Shown here one piece after another: positions 27,327 through 42,734 of a stretch of 64,000 nt of DNA. Source of the stretch: Chloroflexota bacterium. Its GTDB lineage: Bacteria > Chloroflexota > Anaerolineae > Promineifilales > Promineifilaceae. Within the stretch, counting starts at the first letter, position 1, and each line of letters starts with the position of its first letter. The stretch spans positions 1-64,000 of the forward strand of contig JAJRYT010000010.1 of NCBI GenBank assembly GCA_024275635.1, given 5' to 3'. Under the pieces are notes generated by a model, which was given only the letters and a program-made list of their open reading frames with translations, did not search any database and was not told the DNA's origin. The position numbers were made by a program, and so were the translations under genes.

Positions 27327-27437
27327 GTATCTTCTCAAAATTTCGGGGCAAAGATTACAAAAGTTTCAAAACGGGCGCTATGCAGACAATATGTTGTTAA
27401 AACTTTTGTAATCTCCCCAGTTTATTGAGAAGATACA
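27327..27437. repeat. Nested large inverted repeat downstream of efp
   Basis: Outer arms gtatcttctcaa / ttgagaagatac; inner arms agattacaaaagttt / aaacttttgtaatct. Confidence 0.75.
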
Positions 27438-31238: not shown

Positions 31239-34200
31239 ATGCGCTCTACAAAAGGTCTTATTTGGCGCAACTTAACCGCCCACCCTTTGCGCAGCATTTT
31301 AACCGCGCTGGCGATTACGCTGGGCGTGGCCATGGTGTTGGCGGCCACTGTCATCGGGCAGGCGGCCAACCAGCAGGCAACGGCCGTCTCCGCCACCGCC
31401 CTCCCCATTGATTTAGAAATCGCAGCCAGGGACAACGCCCCCTTTGCAGCCCCCCTCCTGGCCTCCCCCCTCATCCAATCCACCCTGCCTCAACTTCACA
31501 TCGCCGCCCAGATGCAGCCATCTGACCAAATGCAGTCATCCGGCCGCAGTTTGGAGATCGTTGGCACAGAATTGTCGCTGTACGCAGAAATTTATAGGCC
31601 GGAATTAGCCAACGGCCGTTTCCCCGCCACCCCCAACGCCATCATCCTACCCATGACCGTCGCCCTGCAAAACAATCTCAACGTCGGCGATGAAATCACC
31701 CTGGCGGCGGACGGCCGTCGGCAAACATTCATCGTTGCCGGGCGATTGAAATTGGAAACCGGATCGGTCATTGGACAGAAAACGACGGCATTTGTCCCTC
31801 TGGCGGTGGCGCAGGAATTAGCCGGGCTGCCCAACCAGGTTGACCGCATTGACGTACTGTTGGCTGCCGACGCCAATCCGGACGAAGCGAAAAGCAGCCT
31901 CTCGCAGCAGCTTGGCCCCGATTTGATTGTCTCCCGAACGGCCGTTCCCGGCAGCGCCAACTTCAACCTGATCATCATCCAGGCCGGGATGAGTATCGTC
32001 GGCCTCATCATCCTCTTTGCCGCCGCCTTCGTCATCCTCAACGCCTTCGCCATGTCCGTCACCGCCCGCACCGAGGAGATTGGGGCGCTGCGCGCTTTGG
32101 GAATGAAGCGGCGACAGATATTGCGGCTGGTACTGAGTGAAGCGCTGATTTTGGCCGCGATTGGCGCGGGTTTGGGCATCCTGATGGGGATTGGGCTGGC
32201 CTACGCTATTTTGCAAGGGCAGCAGTTGCTCGCCGACGCCGAATTTGTCGTGCCCTGGTGGGGACTGCTCATTGGGCCGCTGCTGGGGTTAAGCGTCACT
32301 CTAGCCGCCGCCTATTTTCCCGCTCGGCGCGCCAGCCGCGTACCGCCCATTGTGGCCGTACGCAACTATCAGGTAACGGCCGCTTCTGGCTGGGCCATTA
32401 CATCCGGCAGTCGAATGGGTCTGATTTTGTTGGTTTTGACAATTGTGGGAACGGCCGTTTTCGCCCTCATCGGCCAACCCAACATCTTTGTCGCTCTGGG
32501 CGCGTTTGGCGTCGCGTTGATATTGTTGCTGGCGTGCATCGTCTTGCTGCTGCCGGGATTGGCAGTGCGGTTGGGAACGGCCGTTCGCCCCCTCCTTGTG
32601 CGCTGGCAGGGGACAAACGGCCGTCTCGCCGCCGATAACCTGAGCCGCAACCCCCTGCGCACCGCCCTCACTGCCAGCGCCCTCATGGCCGGGCTGCTCA
32701 TGATCATCGCCACAACCGGCTTCCTGCAAATCTTCCTCAAAGGCGGCTTCAGCGCGCCCGTTTCCCAAATTCAGGGGGATGCCTTCATCTATTTCGACCT
32801 GCTCAACGTCGCGGACGACGAATTTGATTACGACAATCTGAATTTTGACTCCTTCTTCGACGCCATGGATCCCAATCTTACCGGCGAATTGGAGGCTTTG
32901 GCCGCCGCCGGAACCGTCAGGCTCATGCCCATACGCGGCGTGGAAGTACCGCCGGAACTACAATTAACGCCGGGCAGTCCCGCCTTGCTTGTCGATCCGC
33001 AATCCTATTTTGACAGCGGTAATTTCACCCTGTTTGAAGGCGACCAGGCGCAGGCGTTGGCCTGGCTGGCGCAAGGCAACGCCATCCTGCTGCAACCCTA
33101 TCTGGCCGAGCGCGTCAACGCTGGCGTAGGCGACACTGTAACCATTCCCACGCCGCGCGGAGATGTGGATTTCATCGTTGCCGGGATTGGCGGCAGCAGT
33201 TTTCCGATGGCGATTTTGCCCTTCAGCGCCGGCAAACAGTATTTTGACGCCGCCGAACCCTCGTTCATCGGGCTGTTAATTCCCGACAGCCAGGATGCGG
33301 AACAAGTGATGACGGCCGTCGAAGCTATCGTCAATCGCTATCCTGAGTATGCCATTTTCCACGTTGACGACATGATTGATCCGGTCATGTCCGCGATGGG
33401 TCAACTGCAACAAACCTTGACCGCGCTCCTGTCCATGGCCGTCATTGTGGCCGCGCTGGGCGTGGTAAACACAATGGTCGTCAATGTGGCCGAACGGCGG
33501 CGCGAAATTGGCATGTTTCGCGCTGTGGGAGCGACGCAGCGGCAGGTGCGGCAAACGGTCATCGCCGAAGCCGCTGTGTTGGGATTCATCGCCGCGCTGA
33601 TTGCCGCGCTGTTCAGCTTTTTGCTCATCGGGCTGCTGGCCTTGTTATTTATCCCCAATGGGTACGCTTCAATGGGCGTGATTGTGGATGCGGCGCTGTG
33701 GCAGGAAGCGTATGGGCCAGCCTTACGCGATATGAGCGCAGCAACGGCCGTTTCCCTCATCCTGGCTCCCCTCATCGCGGCGCTGGCCGCTGCCTACCCC
33801 GCCCGGCAAGCCGCCGCCGTCAACATCGTGGAAGCGACCCGCAGCGAACGACTGTCGCTGACCAAATCGGGCGACGGCCGTATCGAATCCCATCGCCGCC
33901 AACCAACCCGCCATCTCACCAGTCTGGCCTGGCGCAATTTGCAGGAACACCGGCTGCGTACTTTTTTGAGCGCGACGGCCGTCGCCCTGGGCACAGCCAC
34001 CTTCGTCGCCGCCGATTTTGCCAACAGCGGCATCCTCAACCTGGAAACCGGCGGCGACAACCTGCTGGCTTCCTTCATGGACGGGATGGGTATTATTTTG
34101 CAAGCGATTGGCGTCATTATTTTGGCGGCCGCCGCCTTCCTCATTTTTAACGCCTTCGCCATGACCGTCGCCCAGCGGCGGCGGCAGTTGGGCTTGCTGC

Positions 34201-37200
34201 GCTCGTTGGGCATGACGCGGCGACAGGTTGTGCGCCAATTGCTGGCCGAAGCGTGGCTGACCGGCGGCGCAGGCACGCTGTTGGGACTGATTGCCGGGCC
34301 GCTGTTAGGCAGCGTCATTTTGCAATTTATCAAAGCCAGCGGCGTTGAAATTGGCAGCGGCGCCATCTCCTTTTCCACCCTCCTCATGGCCATCGTCGCC
34401 GGATTGGGCATCACCACGCTCTCTGTTTGGATTCCGGCCAAACGCGCGGCCAAAGTGTCGCCGTTAGCCGCGTTACAAGATATTGGCGAGCGGAAGCTGG
34501 AACAGCAATCGCCAATCTTCAATCTTCAATTTTCAATCGCCATCTTTTTAATCTTTGCCCTCACCCTCTATCTCGCCATCGCACCACCCGGCGCATGGAT
34601 TGGTTTGCATCCGCCCTGGCATTTTCTGGTTCCCTGGTTGGTGATGGCCCCCTGGTTTGTGGCGATTGGGCTATTGCTGCCCACGTTGGCGGAGGCGATG
34701 CGGCGGATGACGGCACGGCCGTTAACCCGCATTTTGGGCGCAACCGGCCGCCTCATCAGCGACAACATGGGGCGCGACCGGCGGCGGACGACGTTGACCA
34801 TCCTTACCTTCGTCGTCGGTCTGGCGATGATTGTGGGGCTGAACGGGATGCTCACCTTCATGAATGAAGTCCTGCTGGTGGAATCGGCGCAAGGGTTGCT
34901 GGGAGAGACCATCTGGTTCGTTCACCCCTTCGACAACAGTAATGGCCTGGCCCAATTAGACGAGTACAACCGGGGCGAGGGGCTATCGCCGCAGGTGCAG
35001 GCGGACGTGATCGCGTTGGCCGAAGGGCGGGCTGAAGTGCAGGCGCAATATATGGCGCTTGTGCCGGAAATTGGCTCGCCGCTGCCAGGGTTTCCGACGG
35101 CTTTGACTGACGCTCGCTATTTGGCAAACAGCCACCATTACACGCTGACGGAAGGGGATTGGGAAACGGCCGTTCCCATCATGGAAGGATCGGGCTGCGG
35201 CTTGCTCATCCCGCCCACCGTCGCCGGTCAGCATCAGGCGAGCGTCGGCGACACGCTGACCATCACCGGCAAAAATGGCCCGGTCAACTGCACGGTGGCC
35301 GGGATTGGGCATGGCGGCGCGACGCCGGTATCCATCATCAGCATCGCGGCCAAAGATGCGTTTGTGGATGGAGAGCCGACGCAATTGTCGGTACGGCCGT
35401 ATCCCGGCGCCGACCCCACTGCCCTGGAAGCTGATTTACGCGATTTGGCCGAGCGGCACGGCGACGCCGCCTGGGTGACGACGCCGGAAGATGAAATCGC
35501 TTCGGTCATTGATACCAGCGACCAGTTGGAAGGAATCGCCAACGGGATGCTGCTGCTGGCGGTGTTGGCGGCGGCGCTGGGCATGATCAACACAACTGTG
35601 ACCAGCGTCACTGAGCGACGGCATGAATTGGGCTTGCTGCGGGCGGTGGGCGCGACCCGGCGACAGGCGACTCTTGTTGTCGTGGGCGAAGCGGCGTTGA
35701 TGGGCTTCACCGGCGGCTTCATCGGTCTGATTGCCGGGGCGGGCGTGACGATGATTTACGCGCTTTCCTTTGGCGGCATCCCCTTTGGCCTGGTGGATCT
35801 GGCGTTGTGGCCGGCGGCGTTGCAAAGCGTTGGCCCAGCGCTGGCGCAGGGGTTGCCGGCGCTGATTTTGGTTCCCATCGTCAGCGCCAGCGCCGCCTAT
35901 TTCCCGGCGCGGCAGATTTTGCGGGGAACGGCCGTAGAAACATTGCAGGAACAGAGGCCCACATCCGTGAAGCGGCAGGCAGCGGGATTGTTGAGCCGGG
36001 GCGGCATTCGGACGCGGTTTGTGCTGGGTACGGCCGTTCTCATGCTCCTCGTTTTGGCGGGATTAACGGCCGTCGTCGTCCGCCACTCCCGCAATTACCT
36101 GGAAGAAACGACAGCCGACGTCGTGACCTCGTTAGTCGAACTGAACGCCAGCATGGTCGAATTCAATCTGCCGCCGGACGCCGATATGCTGACGTTGGAC
36201 GCGCTGCAAAGCGGCAGTTTGGACGCCGACGCGCTGCTCCAATTCCGCTCCCTGATTGACGAGATGAACGCCTACGGGCTGACCGAGTTTGTCATCGCCG
36301 ACCAGGATGATATTGTCCTATTTGGCTTTGACATGGGGCAAATGGGGACGGCGCTGGAGCCATTGGCAGATGAGGGGAAGGCGGTTACGGCCGTCACCGA
36401 AACCGACTCCGGCCAACGTGAAATCCAAGCCGCCGCCCCCATCCGCAGTGAAAACGGCGACCTATTGGGCAGCGTGCGCCTGCGGATGGAGTTGGGCGAA
36501 ATCGGCGGCTTTTTGCGCGATTTGAACCGGGCGATTTTGGGGATGGGAGCGTTCATTCTGGCGTTGGGGCTGGCGCTGGCCTGGCGGACGACGACGCCGC
36601 TAGCGCGCGCGACGCGCCAACTCTCGGCGGGGGCGGAACAAGTGGGGCAAGGACGATTTGCGCCGCTGACCCTGCCCCGGACGTCGCTGACGCGCCGTTT
36701 GTTGAATGTGTCGCTGCGGGTGAAGTTGACGGCCGTCATGGTCATCCTCCTCATCCTGCTGGTGGGCGCGTTGGAACAAGTCATCCTACCCATCGAGCGG
36801 CGCAAAGTAGAGGAAGTGACGCAGAACACGCTCATCGCGGGGACGGAATGGATGGCGCAGATGCTCTCATCCGGCATTGCCGACCAATCGGCGGCCCTTT
36901 CCGATTTCAGCGATCTCAACGATTTGCTGCGCCTGATGCAAGGGTCTGACATCGGCCAGATACAAGATTTGAGCCGGCAGATGCAAAACGAGGCTATCGC
37001 CTACAGCGCATTGATTAACGAAAAAGGCATTATCCAACTGTCCGACCAGTTCGATTTAATTGGCGGCGAAGTTGCCATCCCGGCCCAAACCCTGATTAAA
37101 GAGGCAGATTGGCAGGGCGAGCCTATCTGGCACATCACGACGCCGCTGCGGGATGAGGCCAGCGGAGACGTGACCGGCGGGCTGCAAATTGGCGTGTATC

Positions 37201-38135
37201 AACTGGTTATCGAAGATTTTCTGGCCGAGAGCCGGACGCTGTTCCGGTTGGCGGGTGTTATCGCCGTGTTGGCCGGGGTGATTCTGGCCCAGGCGATTGG
37301 CGGCGCAGTGTCGGCCCCCGCGCGGCGGCTGGCGGCCGACACCCGCCGCGTCGGACAAGGCGACCTGTCCGTCCAGTTCCGGGTCAACAGCCGGGATGAG
37401 TTGGCCCAGTTGGCCGGGGCGTTTAACGAAATGGTCGTCGGGCTGCAAGAGCGAGAATGGCTGCGGGATATGTTCGGCCGTTTCGTCAGCCAAGAAGTGG
37501 CCGAGGCGATACGAGCGGGGCAGGTAAAGTTGGAAGGCGAAAACCGCGTCGTCAGCGTCCTATTCTGCGACATTCGCGGCTTCACCGCCCGCTCCGAGAA
37601 ATCCACGCCGGCCGAAATTGTGGCCTTGCTTAATGAGTACCTGCCGGTCGTCGTCAATGCGGCGCAAAATCATGATGGCATGGTCAACAAGTTTGGCGGC
37701 GACAGTACGCTGGTCATCTACGGCGCGCCCAAGCCGCTGCAAGAAAGCGCCTATCATGCGATCCGCACGGCGCTGGAAATGCACCAGAATTTGGCCCTGC
37801 TCAATCAACGATTGGCCGAACGGGGCGAAGAGCCGATCCGCATCGGCGTGGGCATCAACACAGGCACGGTGTTGGCCGGCGCGGTGGGGCCGCCGGAACG
37901 GCAAGAGTACACGGTGATTGGCGATACGGTCAATCTGGCGTCGCGGATCGAGGCGTTGAATAAGGTGTACCCGCAGCATGGCGTTTTGATTAGCGGGCAG
38001 ACGTATGAGGCGCTGGGCGGCCGTCGGGCGGCGTTTGCGTTTACGGATTTGGGCGAGGTGCAGATTCGGGGGAAGGCGGCGGCGGTAAGGGTGTGGGCGG
38101 TGATTAGACTACAAAAGTCTTGGAGACTTTTGTAG
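31239..38135 (+). CDS. Four-FtsX ABC permease fused to sensor/HAMP modules and a class III nucleotidyl cyclase (2298 aa)
   Basis: FtsX cores TEEIGALRALGMKRRQ, RREIGMFRAVGATQRQ, RRQLGLLRSLGMTRRQ, RHELGLLRAVGATRRQ; HAMP-like RVGQGDLSVQFRVNSRDELAQLAGAFNEM; cyclase VVSVLFCDIRGFTARSE, NKFGGDSTLVIYGAP, EYTVIGDTVNLASRIE. Confidence 0.88.
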   Translation: MRSTKGLIWRNLTAHPLRSILTALAITLGVAMVLAATVIGQAANQQATAVSATALPIDLEIAARDNAPFAAPLLASPLIQSTLPQLHIAAQMQPSDQMQSSGRSLEIVGTELSLYAEIYRPELANGRFPATPNAIILPMTVALQNNLNVGDEITLAADGRRQTFIVAGRLKLETGSVIGQKTTAFVPLAVAQELAGLPNQVDRIDVLLAADANPDEAKSSLSQQLGPDLIVSRTAVPGSANFNLIIIQAGMSIVGLIILFAAAFVILNAFAMSVTARTEEIGALRALGMKRRQILRLVLSEALILAAIGAGLGILMGIGLAYAILQGQQLLADAEFVVPWWGLLIGPLLGLSVTLAAAYFPARRASRVPPIVAVRNYQVTAASGWAITSGSRMGLILLVLTIVGTAVFALIGQPNIFVALGAFGVALILLLACIVLLLPGLAVRLGTAVRPLLVRWQGTNGRLAADNLSRNPLRTALTASALMAGLLMIIATTGFLQIFLKGGFSAPVSQIQGDAFIYFDLLNVADDEFDYDNLNFDSFFDAMDPNLTGELEALAAAGTVRLMPIRGVEVPPELQLTPGSPALLVDPQSYFDSGNFTLFEGDQAQALAWLAQGNAILLQPYLAERVNAGVGDTVTIPTPRGDVDFIVAGIGGSSFPMAILPFSAGKQYFDAAEPSFIGLLIPDSQDAEQVMTAVEAIVNRYPEYAIFHVDDMIDPVMSAMGQLQQTLTALLSMAVIVAALGVVNTMVVNVAERRREIGMFRAVGATQRQVRQTVIAEAAVLGFIAALIAALFSFLLIGLLALLFIPNGYASMGVIVDAALWQEAYGPALRDMSAATAVSLILAPLIAALAAAYPARQAAAVNIVEATRSERLSLTKSGDGRIESHRRQPTRHLTSLAWRNLQEHRLRTFLSATAVALGTATFVAADFANSGILNLETGGDNLLASFMDGMGIILQAIGVIILAAAAFLIFNAFAMTVAQRRRQLGLLRSLGMTRRQVVRQLLAEAWLTGGAGTLLGLIAGPLLGSVILQFIKASGVEIGSGAISFSTLLMAIVAGLGITTLSVWIPAKRAAKVSPLAALQDIGERKLEQQSPIFNLQFSIAIFLIFALTLYLAIAPPGAWIGLHPPWHFLVPWLVMAPWFVAIGLLLPTLAEAMRRMTARPLTRILGATGRLISDNMGRDRRRTTLTILTFVVGLAMIVGLNGMLTFMNEVLLVESAQGLLGETIWFVHPFDNSNGLAQLDEYNRGEGLSPQVQADVIALAEGRAEVQAQYMALVPEIGSPLPGFPTALTDARYLANSHHYTLTEGDWETAVPIMEGSGCGLLIPPTVAGQHQASVGDTLTITGKNGPVNCTVAGIGHGGATPVSIISIAAKDAFVDGEPTQLSVRPYPGADPTALEADLRDLAERHGDAAWVTTPEDEIASVIDTSDQLEGIANGMLLLAVLAAALGMINTTVTSVTERRHELGLLRAVGATRRQATLVVVGEAALMGFTGGFIGLIAGAGVTMIYALSFGGIPFGLVDLALWPAALQSVGPALAQGLPALILVPIVSASAAYFPARQILRGTAVETLQEQRPTSVKRQAAGLLSRGGIRTRFVLGTAVLMLLVLAGLTAVVVRHSRNYLEETTADVVTSLVELNASMVEFNLPPDADMLTLDALQSGSLDADALLQFRSLIDEMNAYGLTEFVIADQDDIVLFGFDMGQMGTALEPLADEGKAVTAVTETDSGQREIQAAAPIRSENGDLLGSVRLRMELGEIGGFLRDLNRAILGMGAFILALGLALAWRTTTPLARATRQLSAGAEQVGQGRFAPLTLPRTSLTRRLLNVSLRVKLTAVMVILLILLVGALEQVILPIERRKVEEVTQNTLIAGTEWMAQMLSSGIADQSAALSDFSDLNDLLRLMQGSDIGQIQDLSRQMQNEAIAYSALINEKGIIQLSDQFDLIGGEVAIPAQTLIKEADWQGEPIWHITTPLRDEASGDVTGGLQIGVYQLVIEDFLAESRTLFRLAGVIAVLAGVILAQAIGGAVSAPARRLAADTRRVGQGDLSVQFRVNSRDELAQLAGAFNEMVVGLQEREWLRDMFGRFVSQEVAEAIRAGQVKLEGENRVVSVLFCDIRGFTARSEKSTPAEIVALLNEYLPVVVNAAQNHDGMVNKFGGDSTLVIYGAPKPLQESAYHAIRTALEMHQNLALLNQRLAERGEEPIRIGVGINTGTVLAGAVGPPERQEYTVIGDTVNLASRIEALNKVYPQHGVLISGQTYEALGGRRAAFAFTDLGEVQIRGKAAAVRVWAVIRLQKSWRLL

Positions 38136-38142
38136 TCTAATC
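38102..38142. repeat. REP-like hairpin, copy A
   Basis: gattagactacaaaagtct-tgg-agacttttgtagtctaatc; 19-bp perfect stem. Confidence 0.9.
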
Positions 38143-38317
38143 GGTTCGCGGATTTGGGCGCGGCGCAGATTCGGGGGAAGGCAGAAAAGGCGAGGGTGTG
38201 GGCGGTGGGGACGGCCGTTCTCCCACCCACCACAACACCACGCGGGAAAACGGCCGTGCCGGATGAATAGCGGCGTTTGGCGGGTACGGCCGTTTCCAGA
38301 AAGCTCTGAAAATCACC

Positions 38318-38770
38318 TTAACTCAAATTCTCCAAATCAGCCAAATCTTGCAAACGGCCGACTGCCTTCTTGTTCTTCTTCAGGTTTTCCAAATCAATAA
38401 ATGGCAAGGCAACCCCATCAACCATTTCCTCAACGCGCCTGGCGTAGCAATCTGAAAATTTGACGCCTTTCAAGCCGGTAATCAGGTCAATACGATTAGG
38501 CGGGTATCCCAACTGAATAATGATGCCCGGCTCCAGAAAATCGGCGGCGGTAAGCCCCAACGAAGCAAATCCAAACTGGTCGAGCGCTTTAACGAGGTTG
38601 GCCGCATTTTGCTCATCAACCCAAACCCAAATATCAATATCTTTAGTGAATCGAGGATGCCCATGGAAAGCAACCGCATACCCCCCTACCACAAGATAGC
38701 GAACATTATTATCGTTTAATGATTGTATAAACTCTTTGAAATCCGGGGTCAGTATCATATTTCCAGGCAA
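38318..38770 (-). CDS. AbiEii-like nucleotidyltransferase
   Basis: NVRYLVVGGYAVAFHGHPRFTKDIDIWV. Confidence 0.75.
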   Translation of the reverse strand: MPGNMILTPDFKEFIQSLNDNNVRYLVVGGYAVAFHGHPRFTKDIDIWVWVDEQNAANLVKALDQFGFASLGLTAADFLEPGIIIQLGYPPNRIDLITGLKGVKFSDCYARRVEEMVDGVALPFIDLENLKKNKKAVGRLQDLADLENLS

Positions 38771-38927
38771 TATAGGCGCGTCGAATATCTTCCAGAGCGG
38801 TTAAACGGGCCGCATATGGCTGTGTTCGCCAGTAAGCAAAATCGGATGGTTGTTCGTTAATCCTTATCTTTCTTACGGTTTTGGCAATTTTTTGCGGATA
38901 TTTTTCCGCTTGAATTTCTTCGGACAT
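38709..38927 (-). CDS. Small protein overlapping the nucleotidyltransferase gene; possible partner
   Basis: MSEEIQAEKYPQKIAKTVRKIRINEQPSDFAYWRTQPYAARLTALEDIRRAYIAWKY; start moved from 38990 because the extension is REP-encoded. Confidence 0.6.
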   Translation of the reverse strand: MSEEIQAEKYPQKIAKTVRKIRINEQPSDFAYWRTQPYAARLTALEDIRRAYIAWKYDTDPGFQRVYTIIKR

Positions 38928-38944
38928 GATAGGCTGATTATACC

Positions 38945-38977
38945 AGATTACAAAAGTCTGCCAGACTTTTGTAATCT
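38945..38977. repeat. REP-like hairpin, copy B
   Basis: agattacaaaagtct-gcc-agacttttgtaatct; 15-bp perfect stem. Confidence 0.88.
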
Positions 38978-39110
38978 CTCTGCGCGTCAACAGAAACTCC
39001 GCACACCCGAATTGGAACGGCCGTTTTCCTATCCCTCCGCCTTCCGTTATAATTTCGCAGGGGTAGTTTGCGAACCGCTCCTACAAGCGCATATAACCAG
39101 GAGACACCCT

Positions 39111-42110
39111 ATGCCCGCCCCGCAAAAAATCCACGACCTCATCGCCCAATTCGAGCGCAACCGCAGCGATTACCGCGCTGTCAACTATAACGAAACCGAA
39201 ACCCGCCGCGAATTTATTGACCCCTTCTTCAAAGCGCTGGGCTGGGACGTAGACAACCAGCAGGGCTACAGCGAAGCGTACAAAGAAGTCGTCCACGAAA
39301 CGGCCGTCAAAGTGCAAGGTAAAACCAAAGCCCCCGACTACGCCTTCCGCATCGGCGGACAGGCCAAATTCTTCGTCGAAGCCAAAAAACCCTCCGTCAA
39401 CATCAAAGACGACATCCACCCCGCCTACCAGCTGCGCAGCTACGCCTGGAGCGGCAAACTGCCCCTCAGCATCCTCACCGACTTTGAAGAGTTCGCCGTC
39501 TACGACTGCCGCCCGCGCCCCGTCAAAAGCGACAAAGCCGCCCACAGCCGCGTCATCTACTTCACCTATGACCAATATATCGAAAAATGGGACGAGATCG
39601 CCGCCATCTTTTCCCCCGAAGCGATCCGGCGCGGCTCCTTCGATAAATACGTGCAGTCAAACAAGCTCAAGCGGGGCACGGCCGAAGTGGACGACGCTTT
39701 CCTGGCCGATATTAGCGGCTGGCGCGAACTGCTGGCCCGCAATATCGCCCTGCGTAACGAGATTAAACCACGCGAACTGAACTTCGCCGTCCAGCGCATC
39801 ATTGACCGGCTCATCTTTTTACGCATCGCCGAAGATAGGGGGATTGAGCCTTACGGCCGTCTCCGCAACGCCGCCACAGCCGATCCCGTCTACCCCGAAC
39901 TGTGCCGTCTGTTCCGATTAGCCGACCAGAAATACAACTCCGGCTTGTTCCATTTTCAGGCCGAAAAGGGGCGGGAGGGGCGAGACACCTGGACGCTCGG
40001 TTTGCAAATAGACGACAAGCCGCTGCAAACCATCGTCAAAAACCTCTACTACCCCGACACCCCCTTCCAGTTTGACATGATCCCGGCCGATATTCTGGGG
40101 CAGGTGTACGAGCAGTTTTTGGGCAAAGTCATCCGGCTGACGGCCGGGGGACGGGCCAAAATCGAGGACAAACCGGAAGTCAAAAAGGCGGGCGGCGTTT
40201 TTTACACCCCCACCTACATCGTCGAATACATCGTCGCCCAGACGGTGGGCAAACTGCTGGAGACGCGCAAGCCCGGCCCCAAAGGGAGCGCCGCCCAACT
40301 GGCCATCCTCGACCCGGCCTGCGGCTCCGGCTCCTTCCTCATTGGCGCGTACCAATACCTGCTCGATTGGCATTTGGAGCAGTACAAACAAAAGCCGGAA
40401 CGATGGGCCAAAGGGCGCAATCCGGCCATTTTCCAAAGCGGAGACGATTGGCGGCTGACGATTGGCGAGCGCAAGCGCATTTTGCTGGCCAACATTTACG
40501 GCGTGGACATTGACCCGCAGGCGGTGGAAGTGACCAAGCTCTCGCTGCTGCTCAAGGTGTTGGAGGGGGAGACGGAGGCGGTGCTGAAACCGAGGCTGCT
40601 GGCGGAGCGGGTGCTGCCCGACTTGAGCGGCAACATCCAATGCGGCAATTCGTTAATTGGGCCTGATTTTTACGCGGGGCGGCAGCTGTCGTTGGGCTTG
40701 CTGGATGAGGAGGAGATGTACCGGATCAATGTCTTCGATTGGGAGGCGGCGTTCCCCAACATTGTGGGCTGGGGCGGGTTTGATGCGGTGATTGGGAATC
40801 CGCCGTATGTGCGGCAGGAGACGCTTGGCGAATTCAAATCATACTTCAAAAAACATTACAAAACGTATGCGGGAACGGCTGATTTATATGTTTATTTTGT
40901 AGAAAAGGGGATTGGTTTACTTAAGAAAGACGGCCGTTTTGCATACATCATGGCAAATAAATGGATTAGAGCAAAATATGGCAAACCTCTACGAAAATGG
41001 CTGAAGCAAGAAAATATAGACCAGCTAATTGATTTTGGCGATCTCCCTGTTTTCCAATCAGCAACCACTTACCCTTGTATTGTGTCAGTAAACAAAAGCA
41101 AACCGATTAACTATTTTTCGGTAACAAAACCTGATACGTTGCAATTTTCTAATTTGGCTGAATATGTTGATGATAATGAATATGATGTCAATCTACCAGC
41201 GTTGAATGATGATGGTTGGGCATTGGTAGATGAACCTACGAGGTTGCTTCTTTTGAAGCTTTTACAAGTTGGAAAGTCATTAGGGGAAACTCTTGATCAC
41301 AAACTATATTATGGAATCAAAACTGGCTTAAACAAAGCATTCGTAATAGATGCGGAAACAAAAGACGATCTTGTCGCAAAAGATTCTCGAAGCACAGAAC
41401 TTATAAAACCATTTTTAGCTGGACGTGATATTAAACGATACCAAACGCCAAACGCAACTCGATTTCTTATTTTAATCCCATCTGGTTGGACAAATGCCCA
41501 AACTGACACAACAAATAAATGGGAATGGCTTCAAAATAATTATCCAGCAGTATCCGAACATTTAGCTCAATACGCAGAAGCAGCACAAAAACGATCTGAT
41601 ATGGGGGATTATTGGTGGGAGTTGCGGTCATGTGCATACTACGAAGAATTCGAGAAGCCAAAATTGATGCTGCCAGATATTTCATTGCATGGGAATTTTC
41701 TCCTTGATTCTGGAAATAATTTTTACTGTGTCAATACTGCTTATATTCTTGGAACCTCAGACCTTTATTTGTTGGGGATTCTCAATTCTAAGTTGATCGC
41801 CTTCTTGTATGGTCATATGTCCCCTGCGTATCGAGGTGGATATCTACGATTCATTTACCAATATCTTGTACAGCTTCCAATTCCTGTTCTAAATGAGCCA
41901 GAGCAACGCAAGCAGTTAACGGGTTTGGTTGAACAAATGCTGGACTTGCACAAGCGGCTGGCAACCGCCCGGCTGCCGCAAGAAAAAACCCTCCTGCAAC
42001 GCCAAATCGCCGCCGCCGACCGCCAAATAGACCAACTCGTCTACCAACTCTACACCCTCACCCCCGCAGAAATCGCCATCGTCGAGGGACTAAGACTACA
42101 AAAGTCTTGA
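39111..42110 (+). CDS. Type IIG-like restriction-modification protein (N6-adenine methylase with nuclease-like N-terminus)
   Basis: PDYAFRIGGQAKFFVEAKKP (PD..ExK-like), LDPACGSGSFL, AVIGNPPYVRQ; start set at MPAPQKIHDL (39111). Confidence 0.85.
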   Translation: MPAPQKIHDLIAQFERNRSDYRAVNYNETETRREFIDPFFKALGWDVDNQQGYSEAYKEVVHETAVKVQGKTKAPDYAFRIGGQAKFFVEAKKPSVNIKDDIHPAYQLRSYAWSGKLPLSILTDFEEFAVYDCRPRPVKSDKAAHSRVIYFTYDQYIEKWDEIAAIFSPEAIRRGSFDKYVQSNKLKRGTAEVDDAFLADISGWRELLARNIALRNEIKPRELNFAVQRIIDRLIFLRIAEDRGIEPYGRLRNAATADPVYPELCRLFRLADQKYNSGLFHFQAEKGREGRDTWTLGLQIDDKPLQTIVKNLYYPDTPFQFDMIPADILGQVYEQFLGKVIRLTAGGRAKIEDKPEVKKAGGVFYTPTYIVEYIVAQTVGKLLETRKPGPKGSAAQLAILDPACGSGSFLIGAYQYLLDWHLEQYKQKPERWAKGRNPAIFQSGDDWRLTIGERKRILLANIYGVDIDPQAVEVTKLSLLLKVLEGETEAVLKPRLLAERVLPDLSGNIQCGNSLIGPDFYAGRQLSLGLLDEEEMYRINVFDWEAAFPNIVGWGGFDAVIGNPPYVRQETLGEFKSYFKKHYKTYAGTADLYVYFVEKGIGLLKKDGRFAYIMANKWIRAKYGKPLRKWLKQENIDQLIDFGDLPVFQSATTYPCIVSVNKSKPINYFSVTKPDTLQFSNLAEYVDDNEYDVNLPALNDDGWALVDEPTRLLLLKLLQVGKSLGETLDHKLYYGIKTGLNKAFVIDAETKDDLVAKDSRSTELIKPFLAGRDIKRYQTPNATRFLILIPSGWTNAQTDTTNKWEWLQNNYPAVSEHLAQYAEAAQKRSDMGDYWWELRSCAYYEEFEKPKLMLPDISLHGNFLLDSGNNFYCVNTAYILGTSDLYLLGILNSKLIAFLYGHMSPAYRGGYLRFIYQYLVQLPIPVLNEPEQRKQLTGLVEQMLDLHKRLATARLPQEKTLLQRQIAAADRQIDQLVYQLYTLTPAEIAIVEGLRLQKS

Positions 42111-42126
42111 AGACTTTTGTAGTCTT
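42092..42126. repeat. REP-like hairpin, copy C (left of RAYT)
   Basis: aagactacaaaagtct-tga-agacttttgtagtctt. Confidence 0.9.
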
Positions 42127-42150: not shown

Positions 42151-42702
42151 ATGGAACCAGGCAGTTACTACCACATCTTCAACCGGGGCAACAACCGCGA
42201 AAACATCTTCCGCGAAACTGAAAATTACCGCTTCTTCTTGCAACGGTACAAAAAATACCTGACAGCGTATGTCAATACCTACGCCTACTGCTTAATGTCC
42301 AACCATTTCCATTTTCTGGATCGCGTCCATGACGATCCGCGTCTGGCGCAAATCACATCCGGTAAGTTAACGCCTCTGGAAAAAGCGTTCCGCGATTTTT
42401 TCATCTCTTACGCCAAAAGTTTTAACAAGCGCTACGGCCGTACCGGCAGCCTGTTCCAATACAAATTCAAACGCAAACCGGCCGATGATTTGGCGTATCG
42501 AATGCGGCTGGTTGTTTACATTCATGGCAATCCGATACGGGCCGGCCTATGCGCGCGCTTTGAGGATTGGCCGTATAGTTCGTACCGCGCCATTTTGAGC
42601 GATAAGGAAACGGCCGTGCAGCGCGACGCCGTTTTGCAATGGTTTGGCGGGCGTGAGGATTTTATTGCTTTTCACGAGGAGTATAAGGATTGGCGACCGT
42701 AA
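42151..42702 (+). mobile_element. REP-associated tyrosine transposase (RAYT/Y1-like)
   Basis: YYHIFNRGNNRENIF, YCLMSNHFHFL (HxH), YIHGNPIRAGL; flanked by REP hairpins. Confidence 0.88.
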
Positions 42703-42734
42703 GACTACAAAAGTCTTGGAGACTTTTGTAGTCT
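42702..42734. repeat. REP-like hairpin, copy D (right of RAYT)
   Basis: agactacaaaagtct-tgg-agacttttgtagtct. Confidence 0.9.

Follow-up and report, generated by a model that had tools for sequence, protein, structure and literature searches.

At the 3' end of a large permease-cyclase gene in the analysed Chloroflexota DNA (a stretch of 64,000 nucleotides, referred to here as the window), a dispersed palindromic hairpin is located between two diverged copies of the gene's own tail. This locus most likely represents a RAYT-type hairpin with a local gene-end duplication, the mechanism of which we infer. Our preferred reading, to which a probability of about 0.55 is assigned, is a hairpin-linked local tandem duplication which would have caught the gene end in a BIME-like manner, followed by divergence of the two copies.

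Architecture and age of the duplicated gene end

The gene is unusual in combining, within a single ORF, four FtsX/MacB-type permease matches (FtsX, E 1.9e-64), a HAMP domain (E 1e-10) and a class III adenylate/guanylate cyclase (Guanylate_cyc, E 1.3e-26). A preliminary description of the region had placed the two tails and the hairpin at 38030-38215, with coordinates, letters and translation that are correct, and had stated that the hairpin provides RLQKSWRLL and the stop, as is indeed seen in ORF 31239-38135 (Table 1). This ORF ends inside the hairpin (...VWAV-IRLQKSWRLL-TAG), its last nine codons and the TAG, which is located in the right arm, being supplied by the palindrome. Copy 2 is in frame yet positioned beyond this TAG, and its reading continues as ...RVWAVGTAVLPPTTTPRGKTAVPDE* to about 38270. 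The DNA fold of 38095-38150 reaches -20.9 kcal/mol (z -10.8).

Table 1 Features of the duplicated gene end and of the neighbouring RAYT-like locus (window coordinates)
Feature	Position	Strand	Remark
FtsX-permease/HAMP/cyclase ORF, 2298 aa	31239..38135	+	profile matches
Tail copy 1 (FTDLGEVQIRGKAAAVRVWAV)	38039..38102	+	translated
Perfect 41-nt palindrome, 19-bp stem, TGG loop	38102..38142	.	encodes RLQKSWRLL + TAG
33-nt family unit, AGACTACAAAAGTCT-TGG-AGACTTTTGTAGTCT	38106..38138	.	identical to the 42702-42734 hairpin
Tail copy 2 (FADLGAAQIRGKAEKARVWAV)	38144..38207	+	past TAG; presumed untranslated
Presumed original gene end (GTAVLPPTTTPRGKTAVPDE*) after copy 2	38208..38270	+	
Predicted C-terminus of the permease-cyclase protein			...VWAVIRLQKSWRLL
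Second family hairpin, AGATT arm variant	38945..38977	.	
Hairpin 5' of the RAYT gene	42092..42126	.	provides the stop of the Eco57I-like gene (LRLQKS-TGA)
RAYT-like Y1/HUH transposase, 183 aa	42151..42702	+	motifs NHFHF, YIHGNP; NF047646
Hairpin 3' of the RAYT gene	42702..42734	.	33 nt identical to 38106-38138

The two tails constitute a direct repeat of 64 nt with 83% identity and a start-to-start distance of 105 nt. Their similarity is far beyond chance, since the flank-to-flank alignment score is 41 compared to a maximum of 21 among 2000 codon-shuffled flanks, and since an abutting repeat was found at 0 of the 174 random sites which served as control.

The only close ortholog among 52 family genomes, that of G016 (84% DNA identity over 703 nt; 185/211 identical amino acids in the cyclase region), possesses one tail, ending ...VWGVTAV*, without a hairpin. 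An ortholog with a duplicated tail in the absence of a REP, i.e. the counter-example named in the preliminary description, was sought among 39 cyclase homologs including that of G016, none of which carries a duplicated tail (0/39); an ancestral duplicated tail was ruled out, as neither orthologs nor homologs contain one. The recombination between paralogous cyclase tails that had also been proposed found no support: no close cyclase paralog was found in the genome from which the window derives, the best match by identity being 52% over 89 aa, which makes a paralogous donor unlikely and led to the rejection of an intragenomic paralog as the source of the tail.

In pairwise comparison, the two copies and the tail of G016 all differ to a similar extent (10-11/63 nt). 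Between the copies dS is 0.31 and dN 0.165, as compared to 0.785 and 0.069, respectively, for the rest of the cyclase region versus G016, and nonsynonymous changes are relatively commoner between the copies (7 nonsynonymous to 4 synonymous versus 28 to 70; Fisher p 0.036), a weak contrast resting on 11 differences. Judged by the lower dS and the nonsynonymous excess, the tail copies look, if weakly, younger than the G016 split and under relaxed constraint, so that the duplication would postdate this split with one copy unconstrained. The 33-nt core is unchanged and identical to the copy at 42702, although a divergence equal to that of the tails would predict about five changes (P about 0.006); this needs either maintenance of the palindrome or a hairpin younger than the duplication. 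Reading youth of the hairpin from its intactness is weakened by co-variation of stem pairs between family copies.

The hairpin family and its RAYT-like gene

In the Chloroflexota genome the 33-nt core is present in 11 exact copies and in 17 when up to three mismatches are allowed, and it is also found in other Chloroflexota and in Bacteroidota/Ignavibacteria assemblies. Across 112 copies, found by one arm only, the family unit has a 3-nt loop and a stem of exactly 15 paired positions; co-variation is seen at the variable pairs 12 and 14, which are paired in 110/112 and 105/112 copies (75 and 82 expected, respectively). Pairing past position 15 is at chance level in these copies, and the four extra base pairs outside the core of the window hairpin probably arose by chance. 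The window copies lack the 5' foot tetranucleotide GT[AG]G, the flanking bases are not constant (some copies have a GG tail), and the copy number of 11 exact or 17 relaxed is below the more than 100 usual for a canonical GTAG REP. The earlier designation as a REP hairpin is thus appropriate in kind, the element being dispersed and RAYT-linked, but not in the sense of a canonical GTAG-footed REP. Out of 89 hairpins, six terminate a long open frame, though some of these frames may not be genes.

Further palindromes were recorded alongside this family. A variant with a loop of about 36 nt is located at 27354-27412, and several hairpins of isolate BB38 (L127, L149, L154) carry locus-specific, perfectly paired arm extensions that generate stems of 21-23 bp. 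A second dispersed double hairpin, GGTCAAATT..AATTTGACC GCGCAATTTT..AAAATTGCGC (L129:7768-7827), matches at least 11 sites of G013 and is present in the window's genome as well (G000:C214). The octamer ACGGCCGT, by far the commonest 8-mer of the 64-kb window with 101 occurrences, resembles the highly iterated palindromes of cyanobacteria. No match was obtained with a degenerate pattern designed for another hairpin family, a scan of viral contigs returned one locus, and the full hairpin sequence had no text match in any relevant paper searched.

The RAYT-like gene is located approximately 4 kb downstream of the window hairpin. Its product contains an HUH motif (residues 51-55) and a tyrosine motif (residues 123-128), both conserved in relatives, and matches NCBIfam NF047646 with E 1.5e-15 and 57.4 bits, under the curated cut-off of 80; the match to PDB 4er8 (TnpArep) reaches only E 0.2. 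The gene is flanked by the hairpins at 42092 and 42702, its TAA overlapping the right-hand one, and the same flanking is seen in G010 and L145, and on one side only in L131. Protein relatives adjoin a hairpin of the identical family in G010, SuakinDeep_MAG43_1 (a degraded gene) and Ignavibacteria MAG_28; the hairpin-RAYT association recurs across genomes. At 13 RAYT loci, those of more distant relatives in the family among them, the hairpin differs in sequence but retains its design, a perfect palindrome of 33-34 nt with a 15-bp stem, a loop of 3-4 nt and arms that are palindromes in their own right (73/91 inner pairs of the arms paired versus 25 expected). Six RAYT genes contain an in-frame hairpin between the HUH and tyrosine motifs, and such in-frame copies inside the transposase gene have already been reported for RAYT subclass 2.4 (PMC6006769).

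The interval between the window hairpin and the transposase gene contains an Eco57I-like restriction-modification gene (38850-42110), whose stop codon is likewise provided by a family hairpin, and a small DUF6036 nucleotidyltransferase-like gene with a short upstream partner (38318-38990, minus strand), the latter two possibly representing a toxin-antitoxin-like module.

Duplications beside other hairpins and the origin of the locus

Two of 115 window-family hairpins have abutting repeats, i.e. that of the window and that of G014 (L129/L163/L252), in which a 29-nt repeat (27/29 identical) abuts the hairpin on both sides and corresponds to the end, ...RETD(I/V)PDAE*, of an open frame. When 245 hairpins of several families are considered, about nine exceed the 99.9% control score, only some of these being close to the hairpin. 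Repeats at L107 were left out, being about 106 nt (in part 20-96 nt) from the hairpin, and those at L334 were set aside as part of a local tandem array having hairpin-free copies. The most telling case is G024, which carries two tandem copies, 122 nt apart, of the unit [gene tail + stop + hairpin + AAAAACGCGACGAA]; the tail part, identical at 65/70 nt between the tandem copies, comes from a gene that resembles the Eco57I-like gene of the window. Arrays of hairpin plus spacer are present in G003 and in an Ignavibacteria MAG. A BIME-like tandem of hairpin and spacer is thus seen in G024 and G003, while in the window the spacer is duplicated with one hairpin only. From this small number of comparable loci, it seems that the hairpins occasionally accompany local duplication of gene ends.

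REP units amplify together with neighbouring sequence, generating BIME-like clusters. At the window locus, the hairpin is a copy of the dispersed palindromic repeat, the RAYT-like transposase encoded 4 kb downstream being its probable mobiliser, and would have arrived at the gene's 3' end. Simultaneously or later, the order being conjectural, the last ~60 bp of the gene would have been tandemly duplicated beside it, generating the tail-hairpin-tail arrangement, possibly by replication slippage, by template switching at the hairpin, or by RAYT cleavage and rejoining. With the hairpin stop now terminating the protein, copy 1 would be translated and copy 2 would be a leftover free to drift, the copies having presumably diverged to 83% after the duplication. 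Such a tandem duplication is favoured because G016 is single-tailed and hairpin-free and 0/39 homologs are duplicated, because the 33-nt unit recurs at 42702 and its family flanks RAYT genes elsewhere, and because G024 and G014 have tail duplications while G003 and the Ignavibacteria MAG have arrays. The lower dS and the nonsynonymous excess between the copies point, weakly, in the same direction. Against it stand the unchanged hairpin core, the small number of the 245 hairpins with repeats, and the lack of a second hairpin after copy 2 in the window and G014, unlike in G024, which calls for either a loss or a different breakpoint.

The repeats of the window and G014, positioned 0-6 nt from a single hairpin on both sides, would also be expected if hairpin insertion had itself created a target repeat of 29-64 nt, e.g. 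if RAYT insertion involved staggered nicks or strand displacement. This was in essence the earlier proposal of an insertion with a long flanking duplication, which fits the single-tailed, hairpin-free G016 but is not general, applying to few of the 245 hairpins. Most of these lack such a repeat, for which reason a target duplication at every insertion was ruled out; moreover, repeat lengths differ, G024 duplicates the hairpin as well, and IS200/IS605 relatives are reported to make no larger target duplications (PMC2817692). A long target-site duplication is consequently considered unlikely. The near-equal distances among the three tails (the two copies and that of G016), together with the unchanged hairpin, which fits a recent event, are compatible with copies that had diverged beforehand, a hairpin-bearing allele having been joined, just past its hairpin, to an allele without one, with a shift of about 60 bp in register. 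Such a recombination is deemed improbable: the 52 family genomes yielded neither a second allele nor a donor, no such paralog was found in the window's genome, and a nonsynonymous excess is not expected for two functional tails. It appears very improbable that the locus is an artefact of assembly or of mixed strains, created by a join at the repeated palindrome. The assembly is fragmented (253 contigs) and a hairpin repeat can confuse short-k assembly, but a join at the hairpin must meet another cyclase tail, of which the genome has no close example; the repeat is direct rather than inverted, and analogous structures occur in other assemblies.

A more far-reaching version of hairpin-linked duplication, which we regard as doubtful, is that these nested-palindrome hairpins, when inserted or amplified by the RAYT, actively cause 30-70 bp of the adjacent gene end to be duplicated. 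The system would then repeatedly rewrite protein C-termini, each time with a new hairpin-encoded tail and a spare copy of the old one.

Relation to known systems and significance

The locus resembles the TIRYT/TIRtron (PMC3733652, 2013), for which self-complementary terminal repeats are described and double-palindromic repeats are mentioned, in that a RAYT-like gene is located between self-complementary terminal palindromes also dispersed in the genome; it differs in host group and in its fixed unit of a 15-bp stem and 3-4-nt loop, and duplication had no match in the text of that paper. With the REPtrons of E. coli, Pseudomonas and Stenotrophomonas (PMC2817692, PMC3116915, PMC6006769) it shares an HUH/Y1 transposase between repeats, dispersed copies, in-frame copies in the transposase gene as in subclass 2.4, and gene-end hairpins giving TAG stops, which GTAG REPs are known to provide to genes (PMC3733652). 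Unlike in REP/RAYT systems, there is no GT[AG]G foot, the stem is perfect rather than bulged, copies are far fewer, and the transposase scores under the NCBIfam cut-off. Tandem amplification of a REP with intervening sequence, as in BIME clusters, is a parallel to the duplication, except that the amplified neighbour is here a coding gene end and that one hairpin is left in the window.

The current findings point to a little-described RAYT/hairpin family of Chloroflexota and Bacteroidota tied to small gene-end duplications. The way in which REP-type repeats spread and amplify is still debated, and at loci such as that of the window and G024, where the copies can be dated and an ortholog free of the hairpin is available, the order of insertion and duplication becomes testable.
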